Shown here: in pieces, positions 52,347 through 61,803 of the stretch | Layout: each line of letters begins with the position of its first letter | Position numbering within the stretch: position 1 is the stretch's first letter | Assembly: GCF_023638035.1 (NCBI RefSeq) | Contig: NZ_JAKRVX010000003.1 | Coordinates: forward strand, 186,001 to 250,000 | Direction of reading: 5' to 3' | Source of the DNA: Natronocalculus amylovorans | GTDB taxonomy: Archaea > Halobacteriota > Halobacteria > Halobacteriales > Haloferacaceae | DNA: 64,000 bases | Notes under the pieces: generated by a model | What the model saw: the letters and a program-made list of their open reading frames with translations, nothing else | Databases searched by the model: none | Told to the model about the DNA's origin: nothing | Position numbers and translations under genes: made by a program

Positions 52347-53519
52347 ATGGCCTCCTCAACAACCGAACAGACTGGTATCGAAGGCGGAGACCAACCAATC
52401 CCGGTCACAGTAGTTAGCGGTGTTCTCGGTGCTGGAAAAACTACGCTTGTCAATCAGCTTTTGTCAACGGTCGAGGACACCCGAATAGCGGTTATTGTCA
52501 ACGATATGGGTCAGATAAACATCGATGCAGATCTGATTGAGCGTGAAAACGAGGATACCGGAATCGTCGATCTCTCAAACGGATGTATCTGTTGTCGATT
52601 ACAGGATGATCTGATCACCGAATCCCTGCGGCTTGCAGAGATACGTGAGTTCGACTATCTCGTTGTTGAATCCTCCGGCATTTCAGAGCCCCTCCCGATC
52701 GCACGGACGTTTATTGAGGGAACTGACAAGACGGAGGGGCCGGTTGAGCAGTTCCGATTGGATACGATGGTGACAGTGTTGGACAGCTACGGCTTTTGGA
52801 AAGAGTTTGATTCCGGCGCATCAATCCCAGAGCCAGATACCGATCCTGAGCGGCCGCTTGCGGAGGTTCTCATTGAATCGATCGAGTTCTGCGATGTACT
52901 CCTGTTGAATAAGATTGACATGGTTCCCGATTCGGAGGTCGACCGAATCGAGACGGCGGTTCGAAAACTCCAGCCACATGCCCGGATTGAGCGTACAACC
53001 TACGGTAAAATCGATCCCGCAACTATTCTTGGTACTGGCCGGTTCGATTTCAAAACGGCGCGCCGATCAGCAGGCTGGAAACAACAGCTCCGATCGCACC
53101 GAAAAGTGGCAGAAACCAATCATGGAGCTGAACACAAACAGACCGACGACCATGACCATCCGCATACAGACGCGGCTGCAACACACGGGATCAACTCGTT
53201 TGTCTATACCCGAACAGACCCATTCGATGCGGAGCGATTAGCGGAGGTCCTCCACGATCGAACTGATAACGTCATTCGCGCAAAGGGACTCTGTTACGTT
53301 GCAGGGACAGATGATGTGATTGGGATGAGCCGAGCCGGTGACGCAATTCAAGCTGGACCGATCGGTTCATGGGGTGAACAAACACCAACGACAGAACTGG
53401 TATTTATTGGCACAACGATGGATGAGGACGCGATCGCTGATCAGCTTGATGCTGCACTCGCTGATTCAGGGCCACCCACAGATCCGGACGAGATATTCCC
53501 GCTTCGAATCAACCCCTAG
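52347..53519 (+). CDS. CobW/COG0523-family GTPase (metallochaperone)
   Basis: 390 residues. Walker A GVLGAGKTTLVNQLL, the metal-site CICCRLQDDL (CxCC), VVESSGISEPLPIA and NKIDMV are diagnostic. A His-rich stretch (HGAEHKQTDDHDHPHTD, about 265-281) probably binds zinc. A C-terminal CobW domain ends the protein. The family moves Zn, Co or Ni into target enzymes. No zinc-uptake gene is adjacent; a dead mgtE lies just upstream. Confidence 0.9.
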   Translation: MASSTTEQTGIEGGDQPIPVTVVSGVLGAGKTTLVNQLLSTVEDTRIAVIVNDMGQINIDADLIERENEDTGIVDLSNGCICCRLQDDLITESLRLAEIREFDYLVVESSGISEPLPIARTFIEGTDKTEGPVEQFRLDTMVTVLDSYGFWKEFDSGASIPEPDTDPERPLAEVLIESIEFCDVLLLNKIDMVPDSEVDRIETAVRKLQPHARIERTTYGKIDPATILGTGRFDFKTARRSAGWKQQLRSHRKVAETNHGAEHKQTDDHDHPHTDAAATHGINSFVYTRTDPFDAERLAEVLHDRTDNVIRAKGLCYVAGTDDVIGMSRAGDAIQAGPIGSWGEQTPTTELVFIGTTMDEDAIADQLDAALADSGPPTDPDEIFPLRINP

Positions 53520-54017: not shown

Positions 54018-56132
54018 CTAATCGTCTGCAGGTTCTGCACCACCGTTGCTTGCAACAGTGATTGCTATCTCTGCGGCTGCAGCTTTGTACTCCGGTATCT
54101 TTGCGCGATCGTCAAGCACATCGTTCGTGAGCCGGTTCGCTGATGCAGCAGCAAAGTGTGGCGTCGTCCAGATAACGCCCTCTTTAATCGCCTCTGTCAC
54201 TTGCGCTTTCACCTCGATTTCGCCACGGCGAGATCGGAGCGTTACCATGTCACCATCTTCGATTTCATACCGTGCCGCATCATTGGGATGAATGTCAACA
54301 AAGTTCTCTGGGTGTTGGCGATTGAGGGTTGGCGATCGGCGACTCATTGTTCCCGTGTTGTAGTGCTCCTCCAATCGGGCTGTCGTGAGAATGAGTGGAT
54401 ACTCTTCATCTGGCACTTCTGCGGGTGGCTGATGGCGCACACCCTCGATCTGTCCGAGTCCATTTTCCGTATCAAATGAGCTCTCGTATAGATACGGATC
54501 ACCCTCGTCACCGAGCTCATAACATGGCCAGTGAAGCCCCGTCTCCCCAAGCAGTTCATACGTCATCCCGTGGTAGCTTGGACAGACCTGTCTGAGCTCT
54601 TCGAACACTGCCTCAACATCATCAAAGCGGAATCCATCCTCACCAAAGAGCCGGCTTCCAATCTCCATCAGAATCTCCAGATCGTGTTTGGTATTCTCGT
54701 GTACCTTCTGGACGCCACGCATTCGCTGGACACGCCGATCGGTATTTGTGACCGTGCCACCACGTTCGGCCCACGTTGTAGCCGGTAAAATTACATCCGC
54801 ATACCTAGCGGTTTCAGTCATGAAGATATCTTGTACGACACAGAACTCAAGCTCTTCAAACCGTTTAGCGACCTCGTTCGCATCCGGCTCGGACATAATT
54901 GGGTTCTCACCCATAATATACAGGCCGTGAATCGATCGACCAGCCTCATGTGAGATCTCGACGTTCGTGAGGCCAGGTTCGGATGGGATTTCGAATCCCC
55001 AGACAGCTTCTACGGATCTTCGAGCCTCATCATCGTCAACGAGCTGATACCCAGGAAGAACGTTTGGCATTGCACCAACATCACAGGTTCCTTGGACGTT
55101 ATTCTGCCCACGGAGTGGGTTAACGCCGGTTCCAGGACGGCCAAGATTTCCAGTGATGAGTGCGAGATTGATCTCGTTTTGGACGTTATCAACACCGCAA
55201 GTGTGCTGGCTCATTCCCATCCCTGTGAAGATGGCCGCATTGTTCGCCATTGCATACTTTTCCGCAGCCAACTCGATATCTTCGAGCGGTACACCGCACT
55301 CTTCGGCCGCAGCCGCTTTATCAAACGATTCGAGCGTTTCTGTGAGGTGTTCGAACCCTTCAGTTCTGTTTGCAATAAACTCCTCATCAATCCAGTCATT
55401 TTCAAGAATCGTCTTGATAACAATATTGAGGAGTGGAATGTCTGTTCCCGGGTTCAGCTGGAGATGCATATGCCGATCGCTCTCGCTAATTTTGAACGAT
55501 CGAGTCGTCTTATTCGCGTGTGGGTCAACCTGAATAACAGTTGCCCCTTCAAGCACAGCCTGTCTGAAATACTGGCTGTTTGCGATCGGATGCTGTTCAC
55601 CTGGATTGGCACCTTGAATCCAAAAGAGATCCCCTGCCTCGCGCAGATCTGCCATACTGTTTGTCATCGCACCAGCACCGAGACTGGTCCGCAGTGCCCA
55701 TACAGTCGAGGCATGACACATCCGTGTACAGTTATCAATATTGTTTGTCCCGTAGCGTCGAGCGATCTTTTGTAGCAGGTAGTTCTCCTCGTTCATCGTT
55801 TTTGAGGAGCCGAAAAAGCCCATTGCATCGGGTTCATACGTGTCACGGATACGCGTCATCTCTGAGACGATCCGATCGTATGCCTCCTCCCATGTTGCCT
55901 CTCGGAACTCACCATCCTCTTTAATGAGCGGCTCTGTAAGGCGATCTTCGTGATTGACAACTTGGGTCGCTGCACCGCCTTTGATACAGATTCGACCCTC
56001 ATTGACAGGGGCATCAGCCCACGGCATGAATTTCACATCACCAGGGTCGTCTCCCTGCTTCACTTGAATCCCACAGCCAACACCACAGTACGGGCAGATT
56101 GTTTTCACCGGGTCCGATTCATCAGTTGACAT
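54018..56132 (-). CDS. fdhA: Formate dehydrogenase, catalytic (molybdopterin) subunit
   Basis: 704 residues. An N-terminal [4Fe-4S] site reads ICPYCGVGCG with a fourth Cys in GRICIKGG. The active-site stretch NCTRMCHASTVWAL has Cys in the place of the selenocysteine of E. coli FdhF, followed by the conserved His. LITGNLGRPGTGVNPLRGQNN and the C-terminal molydopterin-dinucleotide-binding domain complete it. No electron-transfer subunit is adjacent. It lies 0.8 kb from formate-tetrahydrofolate ligase, so formate handling is the likely theme. Start at 56132 fits the family; an ATG at 56141 adds three residues. Confidence 0.88.
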   Translation of the reverse strand: MSTDESDPVKTICPYCGVGCGIQVKQGDDPGDVKFMPWADAPVNEGRICIKGGAATQVVNHEDRLTEPLIKEDGEFREATWEEAYDRIVSEMTRIRDTYEPDAMGFFGSSKTMNEENYLLQKIARRYGTNNIDNCTRMCHASTVWALRTSLGAGAMTNSMADLREAGDLFWIQGANPGEQHPIANSQYFRQAVLEGATVIQVDPHANKTTRSFKISESDRHMHLQLNPGTDIPLLNIVIKTILENDWIDEEFIANRTEGFEHLTETLESFDKAAAAEECGVPLEDIELAAEKYAMANNAAIFTGMGMSQHTCGVDNVQNEINLALITGNLGRPGTGVNPLRGQNNVQGTCDVGAMPNVLPGYQLVDDDEARRSVEAVWGFEIPSEPGLTNVEISHEAGRSIHGLYIMGENPIMSEPDANEVAKRFEELEFCVVQDIFMTETARYADVILPATTWAERGGTVTNTDRRVQRMRGVQKVHENTKHDLEILMEIGSRLFGEDGFRFDDVEAVFEELRQVCPSYHGMTYELLGETGLHWPCYELGDEGDPYLYESSFDTENGLGQIEGVRHQPPAEVPDEEYPLILTTARLEEHYNTGTMSRRSPTLNRQHPENFVDIHPNDAARYEIEDGDMVTLRSRRGEIEVKAQVTEAIKEGVIWTTPHFAAASANRLTNDVLDDRAKIPEYKAAAAEIAITVASNGGAEPADD

Positions 56133-56276
56133 GGTGATCACCTGTGAGGTATGTACTCATGCATCGATGTTACGGTTTGTCAGTCATGAGTGTGTCGGAC
56201 AGAAAACATGAATATTTATTCTTATATATTCTATCGTCGACAAAACCATTACACTGCGTGGGGATGAGATCATGGT

Positions 56277-56846
56277 ATGATGCTCTCTGCGGAAGACATC
56301 GATCGGTATGTCGAGCAGTATCAGGCGGTTGAACCGCTCTATCCTGTCGAATCGGAGGCGATCGAGACGCTCCCAACTGCGCTTCAGACTGGTGAGTACG
56401 GGTGGAAAGATACCGAGTGGATCGTTCAGTGGTGTTTTCGACGCTATCTCGGCGACTATCCCGATACGGACCGTCGTCGTATAGAGGATGCATTTGCGAC
56501 CGAATCATTTGAGTTGGTCCACACGGCTATTTCGACAGCAGCAGACACAGACGACCTACACACTGCGGCCGATGCACTCACAGCACTTTCCGGTGTTGAT
56601 ATCTATGTAGCATCCGCATTACTGTTCTTTATTTCTCCGGAGCAGTACCTCGTTATCGGCCCGCGAGAGTGGGAGGTTCTCTCCGAATCTGGGTTTCTCG
56701 ATCGGACGTATCCTGCATCGCTGACGATCGATGCGTATCAGGAGTATCTAACTGCCTGTACCCAACTGGCAACCGAAACCGATCGATCGTTTTGGGAGTG
56801 TTACATGGGGCTGTGGCAGTGCTGGAAGAGCGAGGTGGATCACTGA
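56277..56846 (+). CDS. Hypothetical protein with HhH-GPD-like core, 189 aa
   Basis: The segment ALTALSGVDIYVASALLFFISPEQYLVIGPREW resembles the helix-hairpin-helix plus Asp-loop region of DNA glycosylase-like proteins, where the sequence is LPGVG...ASAxL...VID. The catalytic lysine or aspartate is not clearly recognisable. It is therefore placed as a structural relative only. It sits between fdhA and fhs, divergent from fdhA. Function unknown. Confidence 0.6.
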   Translation: MMLSAEDIDRYVEQYQAVEPLYPVESEAIETLPTALQTGEYGWKDTEWIVQWCFRRYLGDYPDTDRRRIEDAFATESFELVHTAISTAADTDDLHTAADALTALSGVDIYVASALLFFISPEQYLVIGPREWEVLSESGFLDRTYPASLTIDAYQEYLTACTQLATETDRSFWECYMGLWQCWKSEVDH

Positions 56847-56920
56847 CCCGCTGATACTCTCACAGTGTGAAAATCTACATCGCAGTTCATTATGTTCTAC
56901 GCCCGACATTCACATATTCT

Positions 56921-58633
56921 ATGACACCACAATCCACTGATTCACCTGTTGAGACGGACTATGAGATTGCACAAAACGCAGCTATCGATCCGATTTGGGA
57001 GATCACTGAACCGTTTGGGCTATCGCAGGCAGACGTAGATCCATACGGCCGATACAAAGCGAAACTCACACCTGAGGCGATCGATCGGATCCAGTCCGAG
57101 ACCGAACCGGACGGAAAGCTTGTGCTTGTGACGGGAATGACACCAACACCAATGGGTGAAGGCAAAACGGTCACCGCGGTTGGACTTGGTCAGGCACTCA
57201 CACAACGTGGCTACAAGGCATCAATTACACTCCGTGAGCCGTCGCTTGGCCCGGTTTTTGGAATCAAAGGAGGCGCTGCAGGTGGTGGCTACTCACAAGT
57301 GCTCCCAATGGAAGACATCAATCTCCATTTTACCGGTGACATGCATGCGCTGACCGCGGCTCACAATCTTATTTCGACGCTCCTTGATAATCATATCCGT
57401 CAGGATACAGAACCGAGAATCGATCGCAAAGCGGTGAGATGGAAACGAGCAATTGATATGAACGATCGGGTGCTCCGAAACACCGTTATCGGCCTTGGTG
57501 AAACCGGTGGGGCGGTTCGAGAGGATGGATTCCTCCTCACTGCAGCCTCTGAGCTGATGGCTGTGCTCTGTTTATCCAAGACACTCTCGGAGCTGAAAGA
57601 TCGTATCAGCCGTATTATTATTGCATACGACGAAGGCAAGAATCCGGTCACCGTCGCAGATATTGGTGCAACTGGACCTGCAACACTACTACTTCGGGAT
57701 GCAATCAAGCCAAACGTAGTACAGTCAATCGAAGGCACACCGGCATTTGTCCACGGTGGCCCGTTTGCAAATATCGCACATGGAACCAATTCGGTGATCG
57801 CAAATGACGTCGCACTGCGCCTTTCGGAGTATGTTATCACTGAGGCTGGCTTTGGGTCCGATCTTGGTGCAGAGAAATTCATGCACATTGTCAGCCATCA
57901 GACAGACGTTACACCTGCCGCAGTTGTGCTTGTTGCCTCGATTCGTGCACTTCGATACCATGGCCAAGAGATGTGGCCCGCAGATCTCGATGCGCTCAAA
58001 GAACCGGATGTTGCAGCCGTTCGAACCGGGCTTAGAAACGTGGATAAACACGTCGAAAACCTCAGAAAGTTCGGAATTCCGGTTGTCATTGCGATCAATC
58101 GGTTTCCGAACGATACAGACGAAGAGATTGAGATGGTCCTCGATCACTGTCGAAACGATCTCAATGTTTCCACTGCGGTCTCGACAGTTCACGAAGACGG
58201 TGGTGCTGGCGGAATTTCGCTTGCAGAGCATGTTGTGTCTGCCGCGTCCCAACCATCCGAACTCACACCGTTGTACGAGCCAGAGGCGTCGATCGAAACA
58301 AAAATTGAGACGATTGCGACTGAGATATACGGTGCCGATTCTGTCACGTATAGCTCGCAAGCAAAAACAGACATCGAGCGGATTGAGTCACTCGATATGG
58401 ATACACCTCCAATCTGTCTCTCAAAGACGTTTCACTCACTTAGCGACGACCCAAGCTTGAAAGGAGTTCCAGAGGGGTGGTCACTAACTGTCTGGGAACT
58501 CTACTACTCTGCCGGTGCTGGATTTGTCGTCGTGCTCACTGGAGACGTGATGACACTTCCTGGTCTCCCCGCAGACCCTGCAGCGACTTCGATGGATATC
58601 GATACAGACGGAGACATATCTGGCTTGTTCTGA
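56921..58633 (+). CDS. fhs: Formate-tetrahydrofolate ligase
   Basis: 570 residues. The P-loop MTPTPMGEGKTVTAVGLG, EPSLGPVFGIKGGAAGGGYS, FTGDMHALTAAHNL and HGGPFANIAHGTNS are standard for the family. It makes 10-formyl-tetrahydrofolate from formate and ATP, linking formate to C1 biosynthesis. Start placed at 56921 (MTPQSTDSPVE), consistent with the family; the frame also opens with a GTG at 56867. Confidence 0.95.
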   Translation: MTPQSTDSPVETDYEIAQNAAIDPIWEITEPFGLSQADVDPYGRYKAKLTPEAIDRIQSETEPDGKLVLVTGMTPTPMGEGKTVTAVGLGQALTQRGYKASITLREPSLGPVFGIKGGAAGGGYSQVLPMEDINLHFTGDMHALTAAHNLISTLLDNHIRQDTEPRIDRKAVRWKRAIDMNDRVLRNTVIGLGETGGAVREDGFLLTAASELMAVLCLSKTLSELKDRISRIIIAYDEGKNPVTVADIGATGPATLLLRDAIKPNVVQSIEGTPAFVHGGPFANIAHGTNSVIANDVALRLSEYVITEAGFGSDLGAEKFMHIVSHQTDVTPAAVVLVASIRALRYHGQEMWPADLDALKEPDVAAVRTGLRNVDKHVENLRKFGIPVVIAINRFPNDTDEEIEMVLDHCRNDLNVSTAVSTVHEDGGAGGISLAEHVVSAASQPSELTPLYEPEASIETKIETIATEIYGADSVTYSSQAKTDIERIESLDMDTPPICLSKTFHSLSDDPSLKGVPEGWSLTVWELYYSAGAGFVVVLTGDVMTLPGLPADPAATSMDIDTDGDISGLF

Positions 58634-58691: not shown

Positions 58692-60476
58692 ATGACCAAC
58701 CGATCGCGTGACCATTTGCTCACGGTCGATCTGTCAACGAAGTCCGTTGAGCGGTGGAAGATTCCCAACAGATGGTGTCGTGAGTATATTGGGGGGAAAG
58801 GTCTGGGTGCGCGATATCTGTATGAGGCGCTCTCCCCTGGGACCGACCCTCTTGGTCCAGCTAACGCGATCGGATTTGTCGTAGGCCCGCTCTCCGGATA
58901 TCTCCCCGGCCAGTCCCGATTTGCGGTGATTACAAAATCACCGCTGACTGGCGCATTTCTTGACTCCTACAGCGGTGGCTCGTTTGCCGATCGCCTCGCA
59001 GGCTCACTGGACGATTGTTTGGGTATGTTCGTTACCGGACAAGCCGATCATCCGGTTCAAATCGCTGTTTCCGGTGGGACTGCGACAATTGAGCCAGCGG
59101 AGACGTGGGGGATGGACACGGCCAACACAGATTCGAACGCACCGGCCGCGGCTACCGCCTGTATTGGCCCTGCGGGCGAAAATCAGGTCATGTATGCGAC
59201 GATTGCAGCTGATGGAGGTGACCATCACGCTGGACGAGGTGGTGCTGGCGCGGTAATGGGGAGCAAACAGCTGAAAGCAGTACTCGCACTCGATGGGCCG
59301 CCGGAGATACCACCAAACGTTGCACCACTCAAAGAAGCGCTGCTGGAGACGTACGAATCTCACGACACTGGCACATGGCACGCTTCGGGAGGCACAATGG
59401 AGAGCATTGATTTTGCCAATACCGTTGGTCATCTTGCAACAGAAGGCTGGCAACGCGATCGGTTCACTGAGGTTTCTGACCTTGGCATTGCGGCTGTACA
59501 GCGCGCCGCGAGCAAGCGTGAACAAACAGAGACGGAAACAGAACTCCCCGGTGACTTCTATTTCGAAACCGATGACGGACGCGTCGTGCTGCGCGGTGCT
59601 GCACCGATGACGCTTGGTGCAGGGCTTGGCATCTATGATTTGGAGGCAGTCACAGCACTTGGAGAGCAGTGCGATCTGCTCGGAGTTGACGTCATAGACA
59701 CCGGAAATGCGGTCGCATGGGCAATTCGCGCAGCGGAGGAGGGTGTGATAGAGACAGACCTCTCATTTGGGGATGCAACGGGTGCAAGCGAACTCATCGA
59801 CGCCATTGCAACGCGCGATCGATCACCGAATCCACATTGGCCCGAGAAGCTTCCAACAACGCTTGCAGACGGAATCGACGCCGCAGCAAACGCGTACGGT
59901 GGCAACGACCTGATCCCAACGGTAAAATCGATGGCGCTCCCCTCGTACGACCCTCGTGGGGCCGCGGGGATGGCACTCGCGTACGCGACAAGCGATCGCG
60001 GTGCCTGCCACAGACGCGCTCGCCCAATCGAGACAGAGGCACTCGCGGCTGAGACATGGTCTGTTGCAAAAACCATCGAATTTGTGATTGGTGCACAAAC
60101 AGTTCGATCAGTGCTTTGGAGTCTTGTCATTGATGATTTCGTTGGCGAAGCGTTATGGGAAACACTGGGAAGTGACTGGCTCTCTGCGATCGGGTATGAC
60201 TACACGCAGCCGGATCTCTTGGAAGTTGGCGAGCGAATTTGGACACTCGTCAGACTGTTCAACGCTCGCGAAGGGTTTGATCGGGCGGACGATCGGCTCC
60301 CACCAATACTGACATCACCTGCGAACGATGCCACTCCCGAGCGGATTGTCGATCCAGAACGCTTCGGGTTGCTACTTGATGGATACTATGCTGCGCGCGG
60401 ATGGGATGCAGACGGGATCCCCACCGCGGACACAATTGCTCGACTTAACCTTTCAGACGTCATTGCGTCCATGTGA
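58692..60476 (+). CDS. Aldehyde ferredoxin oxidoreductase homologue lacking Fe-S cysteines
   Basis: 594 residues of the AOR family. The tungstopterin-binding N-terminal domain (GGKGLGARYLYEAL, GRGGAGAVMGSKQLKAV) and the GVDVIDTGNAVAWA region are recognisable. The CxxCxxxC cluster motif expected between about residues 270 and 310 is absent; the sequence there is QRAASKREQTETETELPGDF. The late ligand reads SLVIDDF where a Cys is usual. It may be an enzyme without the [4Fe-4S] cluster or a non-redox paralogue. It follows fhs. Confidence 0.82.
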   Translation: MTNRSRDHLLTVDLSTKSVERWKIPNRWCREYIGGKGLGARYLYEALSPGTDPLGPANAIGFVVGPLSGYLPGQSRFAVITKSPLTGAFLDSYSGGSFADRLAGSLDDCLGMFVTGQADHPVQIAVSGGTATIEPAETWGMDTANTDSNAPAAATACIGPAGENQVMYATIAADGGDHHAGRGGAGAVMGSKQLKAVLALDGPPEIPPNVAPLKEALLETYESHDTGTWHASGGTMESIDFANTVGHLATEGWQRDRFTEVSDLGIAAVQRAASKREQTETETELPGDFYFETDDGRVVLRGAAPMTLGAGLGIYDLEAVTALGEQCDLLGVDVIDTGNAVAWAIRAAEEGVIETDLSFGDATGASELIDAIATRDRSPNPHWPEKLPTTLADGIDAAANAYGGNDLIPTVKSMALPSYDPRGAAGMALAYATSDRGACHRRARPIETEALAAETWSVAKTIEFVIGAQTVRSVLWSLVIDDFVGEALWETLGSDWLSAIGYDYTQPDLLEVGERIWTLVRLFNAREGFDRADDRLPPILTSPANDATPERIVDPERFGLLLDGYYAARGWDADGIPTADTIARLNLSDVIASM

Positions 60477-60516: not shown

Positions 60517-61803
60517 ATGGACCTCCATCCGGGTACCTCACGCAGGTCGTTTCTCAAAGCGGCAGTTGCCGTTGGTGGCGCATCCGCACTAGCTGCGTGT
60601 CTCGATCGGTTTGAGGATGATGAACCAATCCCAACTGGAACGGACGATACGTCTTCGCTACCGGCTGGCCAACACGAGTGGAACCAGTCACTTGACCGAG
60701 ACGAACATGATAATCTTATCCTCCCAAAACATCATGTCTTTTTATATCTCGACCTTGCTAATGGCGGTGAGCCAACTGCTTCAGACCGCGAGTCAGTTGA
60801 GACCGCGCTCCAGACAATCGAGCAAGCGTACGAATGGAGTCATCGAGGAGCCGTATTCGAACTCGCATACTCGCCCTCGTACTTTGATCGGTTCTCGGAG
60901 TCGCTTGATGAGACGATCGATCTCCCGATGCCAACGGCGATTGGATCGCTTGAAAACCCGACGTTGGACACGCAAGACGCGCTCTTACACATTGCATCTG
61001 ATCGACCGGATGCACTGTTGGCGATCGAGGAGGCGATGTTCGGTGACGAATCAGAAATGAACGGAGTCGAGATAACCGAACGGCTCAATTCAGTCTTTTC
61101 GGTTGATAATCGCCGATCCGGGTTTATTGGCCCGGGGTTACCAGCCGAACGCCAAGATATCAGTGGTATCCCAGATGACCGGCCTGTACCGGAGGAATCA
61201 CCGCTATTTATGGGGTTCAAGGCTGGGTTTACTGGCAATCAAGCAACCGAGGAATCGGTGACGATTGCTGCGGGCCCGTTTGCTGGTGGGACGACAAAAC
61301 ACGTTTCAACGGTTCGACAGGAGCTCGATAAATGGTATACTGAGAACAGTTTTGACGATATGGTTGCGTTGATGTTCAGCCCTGAGCTTGCCAGTCGGGG
61401 CACTGTCGAAGGAGTTGGTAATAATCTCGGCGATCACAGCGGTGTAACCGAGGAAATATACGAAAACGTTCGCGAGCACGCGGAACAATACCGACGTGTT
61501 GGGCACGCTGAAAAAGCAGCCAGAGCAAACAGAGATGATGACGGAAACCCGCTCTTGCTTCGTCGGCACGTGGAGTCTACTGATGGAAGCGTTGCAAGCC
61601 TGCATTTTCCAACCTACCAACTCCAGATTTCGGACTTCATTGCCGTCCGCGAGGCGATGAACGGCTCCGATCTGACTGACACCCCTTCGATCCAAAACCG
61701 TGTTAACAACGGTATTTTACGATACCTGTTTACCCAACACCGTGGAAACTTCCTATTGCCGCCACGATCGCTTCGATCGCTTCCGACTCCCACCGGTGAA
61801 TAG
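60517..61803 (+). CDS. Tat-exported Dyp-type-peroxidase-like lipoprotein
   Basis: 428 residues. SRRSFLKAAVAVGGASALAAC is a twin-arginine signal ending in a lipobox Cys. The body has the Dyp-like order: MGFKAGFTGNQ in the place of the GxxDG motif, VTIAAGPFAGGTTKHVST, a histidine helix VGHAEKAARAN that could supply the proximal haem ligand, and LLLRRHVES. The catalytic Asp of the distal GxxDG is missing. Start at 60517 fits the signal; a longer upstream frame overlaps the AOR gene. Confidence 0.65.
   Translation: MDLHPGTSRRSFLKAAVAVGGASALAACLDRFEDDEPIPTGTDDTSSLPAGQHEWNQSLDRDEHDNLILPKHHVFLYLDLANGGEPTASDRESVETALQTIEQAYEWSHRGAVFELAYSPSYFDRFSESLDETIDLPMPTAIGSLENPTLDTQDALLHIASDRPDALLAIEEAMFGDESEMNGVEITERLNSVFSVDNRRSGFIGPGLPAERQDISGIPDDRPVPEESPLFMGFKAGFTGNQATEESVTIAAGPFAGGTTKHVSTVRQELDKWYTENSFDDMVALMFSPELASRGTVEGVGNNLGDHSGVTEEIYENVREHAEQYRRVGHAEKAARANRDDDGNPLLLRRHVESTDGSVASLHFPTYQLQISDFIAVREAMNGSDLTDTPSIQNRVNNGILRYLFTQHRGNFLLPPRSLRSLPTPTGE

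Follow-up and report, generated by a model that had tools for sequence, protein, structure and literature searches.

AOR family proteins are generally taken to possess a [4Fe-4S] site without exception. In PMC10413684 the cysteine motif is ascribed to 99% of them, and in PMC13328260 the WORs are sorted into 92 clades, Class I being defined by a single large subunit that bears the [4Fe-4S] cluster. Yet a clade devoid of this cluster is carried by 218 of the 391 Halobacteria genomes that we sampled. The member described here is encoded in a 64,000-nucleotide stretch of Natronocalculus amylovorans DNA, called the window below.

Several described systems resemble this clade in part. P. furiosus AOR and FOR (1aor and 1b25) share with it the whole fold, the GRGG loop and the equivalents of Asp343, Thr243, Tyr427 and His448. 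However, the clade has no [4Fe-4S] ligands, and it shows Arg-Gly-Ala in place of Glu-Tyr-Glu (EYE), Trp for Asp489, Asp for Cys494 and His-His for Arg182-Ala183. A cluster-bearing haloarchaeal sister group (L134-L137 and L158-L162) is about 40% identical and has the His-His pair at the Mg/phosphate site, Tyr93, an aromatic residue at Asp489 and, in most members, Asp482, but it retains CxxCxxxC, EYE and Cys494. WOR clade 83 (Haloferax volcanii WOR83, 9q1t), which the locus L003 of the window's genome resembles, also has the AOR fold and is present in Halobacteria; it keeps both the cluster and Glu313, at about 30% identity to the clusterless AOR. BamB and YdhV are, according to PMC12096430, AOR family members with other chemistry in which the usual AOR second-shell residues are missing; they differ by an extra Cys metal ligand (Cys322 / Cys336), and BamB is just 24% identical to the clusterless AOR. 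FdhD and FdsC, the sulfurtransferase chaperones from which, according to PMC12140954, formate dehydrogenase (FDH) usually receives its essential sulfido ligand, are alike in proposed role and in genetic association with FDH and in nothing else, the clusterless AOR being without the PF02634 domain.

Our literature search, run on titles and the openings of abstracts in a limited collection of papers, returned no description of a clusterless AOR clade or of its link to FDH or YqeC. With this clade, haloarchaea that are open to genetics can be used to ask what function is left to an AOR fold that has no electron exit, and where the sulfido ligand of FDH comes from when there is no FdhD.

Results

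By its domains and predicted model, the window gene (Table 1) encodes a full-length AOR-fold protein, and its sequence has none of the four [4Fe-4S] cysteines. Only AFOR domains were detected, and PF02730 and PF01314, the pair that marks the AOR/WOR family, both score above gathering (AFOR_N 194.7 bits, cut-off 29.8; AFOR_C 262.4 bits, cut-off 27). The AlphaFold model, built on 69 aligned sequences, has a mean pLDDT of 95.4 and a pTM of 0.95. The solved structures nearest to the protein are all AOR-family enzymes. By structural alignment with VIA-align the model superposes on 1b25 with Z 49.6 (rmsd 2.1 Å, 579 residues) and on 1aor with Z 48.8 (rmsd 2.0 Å, 573 residues). A TM of 0.92 also speaks for the AOR fold.

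Table 1. Positions of the clusterless AOR gene, of its diagnostic residues and of neighbouring or related genes (window coordinates unless a locus is named)
Feature	Position	Strand	Basis
Clusterless AOR homologue, 594 aa	58692..60476	+	ATG start; ORF list, Pfam domains, AlphaFold model
His178-His179, for Arg182-Ala183 (MPT/Mg site) of P. furiosus AOR	59223..59228	+	alignment
GRGGAGAVMGSK, conserved AOR motif, residues 181-192	59232..59267	+	sequence and 120-sequence alignment
Loop residues 274-290 at the CxxCxxxC site, no Cys	59511..59561	+	alignment; length varies among relatives
Arg301-Gly302-Ala303, for Glu311-Tyr312-Glu313	59592..59600	+	alignment
His440, equivalent to His448 of P. furiosus AOR, kept	60009..60011	+	96/96
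WSLVIDDF, residues 476-483, for DxxGLC(L)	60117..60140	+	alignment
CobW-type metallochaperone GTPase	52347..53519	+	profile match; relatives in 12/80 clade loci
FDH alpha subunit of the Cys type (MCHAST motif), divergently oriented	54018..56141	-	TIGR01591 751.7 bits, cut-off 666
189-aa ORF upstream of FTHFS, no family match	56277..56846	+	profile searches
Formate--tetrahydrofolate ligase (FTHFS)	56867..58633	+	NF010030 787.7 bits, cut-off 652
DUF7405 protein, Tat-like signal	60517..61803	+	PF24152 514.9 bits; in-frame ATG at 60517
MobA/YqeC/WOR83-like gene region	L172 (G000:C12:306000-325900), 7591-14570

Matches at E≤1e-60 were found in 225 of the 391 genomes; seven of these were cluster-bearing relatives (G032, which is L134, among them) and were set aside, leaving the 218. 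Ten weak matches within the clusterless set are split matches of 51-61% identity. In a profile search over 196 genomes across the phylum, full-length clade members scored 826-1043 bits (split ones less per piece), the sister group 554-558 bits and proteins from outside Halobacteria at most 393 bits. As a separate observation, in-frame TAG, TAA or TGA codons occur in some AOR-family matches (G131:C1:2019771-2021498; also in G443, G448, G516 and G548).

We aligned 120 sequences: 96 clade members (some of them near-copies of one another), four sister sequences and 20 other cluster-bearing AORs. All four ligands are missing in 96/96 clade rows, and CxxCxxxC, EYE and Cys494 are retained in all four sister rows and in five further sister sequences. 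In a quick tree of 61 rows, a branch with support 100 separates all 42 clusterless rows from the rest, and the sister group adjoins them. Cluster loss thus defines a clade, a point that the original prediction had proposed to check, and judging from these sequences it arose once, while its sister keeps the cluster. The dN/dS values of nine close clade pairs (0.07-0.24) mark the gene as one under purifying selection.

The residue-level claims of the original prediction were borne out. It held that the CxxCxxxC trio is missing, that the fourth cysteine is replaced and that only five cysteines remain in 594 residues. Indeed, the canonical stretch aligns with the Cys-free KREQTETETELPG (residues 275-287), Asp481 occupies the position of Cys494 in P. 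furiosus AOR, and the five cysteines are C29, C109, C157, C327 and C439; the conserved AOR motif is present. The protein therefore has no four-cysteine [4Fe-4S] ligand set of the AOR/WOR kind, and without ligands it falls outside Class I as PMC13328260 describes it. No cysteine stands in register elsewhere among the 96 aligned clade members. The near-invariant cysteines of the clade are C157 (95/96), C327 and C439 (both 96/96) and no others, which is why substitute ligands were rejected; C327 and C439 also occur in many cluster-bearing rows. Nor has a segment been removed near residue 280: the loop is intact, and in relatives it is of similar or greater length and Cys-free, except for one unrelated Cys in L040. 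The 96 aligned relatives and the intact loop length together rule out a sequencing error or deletion at this point. Leaving the chain ends aside, model confidence is lowest in this loop (pLDDT 75).

The losses extend beyond those first noticed, to Glu313 (Ala303), Asp489 (Trp476) and Arg182 (His178). Equivalences to P. furiosus residues were taken from the alignments, the functional residues being those named in PMC12096430 and PMC10413684. The changes form two layers. The first (Asn93 to Tyr, Arg182 and Ala183 to His, Asp489 to an aromatic residue) is common to the sister and the clade: His178 is found in 96/96 and His179 in 93/96 clade rows and both in 4/4 sister rows, where most cluster-bearing AORs have R and A. 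The second is confined to the clade and comprises the loss of the four cysteines, the replacement of EYE by Arg-Gly-Ala(Gly/Ser), of Asp489 by Trp and of Cys494 by Asp. In the clade, the EYE position reads R in 95/96, G in 96/96 and A in 81/96 rows (Gly and Ser being the variants), against EYE in 4/4 sister rows; the W and both D residues of WSLVIDDF are found in 96/96, where the sister retains Cys. New residues at 96/96 are thus His178, Gly302, Trp476, Asp481 and Asp482. Alongside them, the equivalents of Gly95, Asp343 and His448 are kept in 96/96 rows, Thr243 in 94/96, Arg76 in 90/96 and Tyr427 in 86/96, the remaining ten having Phe.

A pocket so invariant and yet so different suggests a specific ligand rather than decay. 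Of the residues that characterise aldehyde-oxidising AORs, Thr243, Tyr427 and His448 are kept, whereas Glu313 is lost in 96/96; because both the cluster and this catalytic glutamate are gone, canonical aldehyde chemistry by the accepted AOR mechanism is unlikely. A pterin-like ligand is probably still bound, since neither the fold nor the residues on the metal side have been lost. However, of the cofactor ligand residues some are kept and others, the pterin-contact residues Arg182, Asp489 and Cys494, are changed, and the protein may therefore bind the cofactor differently or no longer bind it. The original prediction concluded that the protein must use another electron route or do different chemistry. 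This was a fair inference, of which the second half stands better: a different chemistry or a non-catalytic role is favoured over a new electron exit for an AOR, because Glu313 and the second-pterin residues are changed in the same clade.

In the window, the clusterless gene lies directly between FTHFS, on the same strand, and the DUF7405 gene. Relatives of the latter occur in 13/80 clade loci, there on the opposite strand, and relatives of the 189-aa ORF in 16/80, near FDH. The YqeC and MobA genes of this genome are on another contig, about 4 kb from the cluster-bearing WOR83-like AOR gene.

Neighbours were surveyed in 80 named loci by clustering, tblastn with representatives and naming against profile libraries. 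In 46 of the 61 clade loci with full flanks, an FDH-type gene is no more than 10 kb away. Classed by best match (100 bits or more), 22 of these are of the cytosolic type and 24 are Tat-type FDH-like enzymes; three representatives of the latter score 441-451 bits to TIGR01591, below its cut-off. The electron partners vary by locus (NuoF-like, HdrA/FlpD, FeS+NrfD). Across the 80 clade loci we counted YqeC in 33, TorD-like genes in 30, HdrA in 27, MobA in 20, formaldehyde-dehydrogenase-like genes in 13, CobW in 12, FTHFS in 8 and MoaA in 5; DUF7124 is found in 32, always downstream on the same strand. MobA or YqeC is often the immediate neighbour; the distance is 300 bp or less for MobA in 15 of its 20 loci and for YqeC in 16 of its 33. 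Nine of the 61 full-flank loci have no FDH, YqeC, MobA, MoaA or TorD-like gene. Unlike the clade, the sister has no FDH-type, YqeC, MobA or other clade partner gene in any of eight loci (L197-L204, three of them short-flanked); these adjoin ABC transporter, aldehyde dehydrogenase or FAD oxidase genes, and a setting in amine or polyamine catabolism is plausible.

At the genome level, 217 of the 218 carriers of the clusterless gene also have YqeC, versus 55 of the 173 genomes without the gene (Fisher p 1e-55), the lone exception, G362, being 85% complete. Kinship is handled in these counts only through genera, for which the tallies give 57/57 with the gene versus 8/29 without. The TIGR01591 FDH is present in 205/218 genomes with the gene versus 82/173 without; FDH alpha is found in 287 of the 391. 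FDH and YqeC occur together in 254 genomes, 204 of which have the clusterless gene, and 33 FDH genomes lack YqeC. No FdhD (PF02634) was found in 145 Halobacteria genomes, the window's own among them. Of the 82 FDH-positive genomes without the clusterless gene, 50 have YqeC. Conversely, a TIGR01591 FDH is missing from 13/218 genomes that carry the gene. Five of these were inspected: in three, a Tat-type FDH-like gene is no more than 10 kb away, and in the other two the surroundings of the AOR hold no FDH-like gene.

Discussion

The best reading of these results, to which we would give a probability of about 40%, is that the clusterless AOR is a pterin-cofactor-handling protein in FDH maturation. 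Though it has shed both the catalytic glutamate and the [4Fe-4S] cluster, the protein would still hold the Mo/W-pterin cofactor, or a precursor, in its remodelled pocket. It would be a cytosolic protein and take part, together with MobA and YqeC, in cofactor assembly, sulfuration or insertion, its clients being FDHs of the bis-MGD family in archaea without FdhD. This supposes that it binds a pterin, that cofactor is transferred and that FDH depends on it. We favour a cofactor role without FdhD because its tightest partners, YqeC and MobA, are cofactor genes, and the likely client, FDH, resides in two cellular locations. The association with both cytosolic and Tat-type FDHs disfavours a substrate-specific FDH subunit, and with an exported enzyme and an ORF start free of a Tat-like signal, maturation fits better than a stable subunit. 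More tentatively, an AOR-fold enzyme may here have become a carrier of the Mo/W-pterin or a workbench for it, forming with YqeC and MobA a new route of FDH maturation in FdhD-less archaea.

Several points count against a role in maturation. The cofactor found in known AOR relatives is bis-MPT, not bis-MGD. YqeC and MobA are encoded elsewhere in the window's own genome, and 13 genomes with the gene are negative for the TIGR01591 FDH. YqeC, whose role PMC11448449 describes as uncertain, could be deleted in C. difficile with no obvious effect on phenotype (PMC11448449); chemical sulfuration of FDH is moreover possible without a maturase (PMC12140954). Furthermore, 82 of 287 FDH genomes lack the clusterless gene. 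It is therefore not required for all haloarchaeal FDHs and is clearly not their sole maturation route, and a universal replacement of FdhD is not supported.

The main rival, to which we give a somewhat lower probability, is that the protein is still an active Mo/W enzyme and serves C1 metabolism, its substrate being formate, formaldehyde or a similar C1 unit. Arg301 and His440 would lie near the metal site, the reaction would be non-redox or would pass electrons directly to a partner, and the product would feed FDH or formate-THF ligase. The operon order in the window (FTHFS, AOR, DUF7405, with FDH divergent), the formaldehyde-dehydrogenase-like and FTHFS genes among the neighbours and the mostly kept second-shell Thr, Tyr and His are consistent with such an enzyme, but Glu313 is lost throughout, no electron relay is left, cytosolic and Tat-type FDHs are found alongside alike, and the tightest genomic partner, YqeC, is a cofactor gene. 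This rival owes its weight mainly to the window's own genome, where the gene directly follows FTHFS and YqeC and MobA are on the other contig.

That the protein is a metal-free pseudoenzyme regulating FDH or C1 genes, as a scaffold or as a sensor of pterin, folate or formate, seems unlikely. The joint loss of the cluster, Glu313 and Asp489 and the adjacency of FTHFS in some loci would suit it, but metal-side Thr235, His440 and Asp333 are nearly invariant, no DNA-binding or partner domain is seen, and the MobA/YqeC linkage points toward a metal cofactor. Less probable still is an ordinary aldehyde-oxidising AOR that delivers electrons straight to ferredoxin or another acceptor: the fold and the His448, Tyr427 and Thr243 equivalents agree with it, whereas EYE to RGA and Asp489 to Trp hold across the clade, and the 80 loci have no aldehyde-metabolism linkage comparable to that beside the sister. 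A sequencing error, pseudogene or misassembly can be practically discounted given the conservation across 96 aligned sequences and the dN/dS range of the nine clusterless pairs.

To return to cofactor handling in FDH maturation, its partner YqeC was proposed in PMC2276186 to serve molybdenum hydroxylases of the selenium-dependent kind as an accessory protein. SelD is above cut-off in just 12 of 145 Halobacteria genomes; YqeC is therefore not tied to selenium in this class, and a selenium link of the clusterless AOR through YqeC is weak.

Several genomes (G153 and others of genus g29) carry two YqeC genes, of about 325 and 247 aa; in some genomes of this genus the shorter one adjoins the clusterless AOR and the longer one is near SelD.
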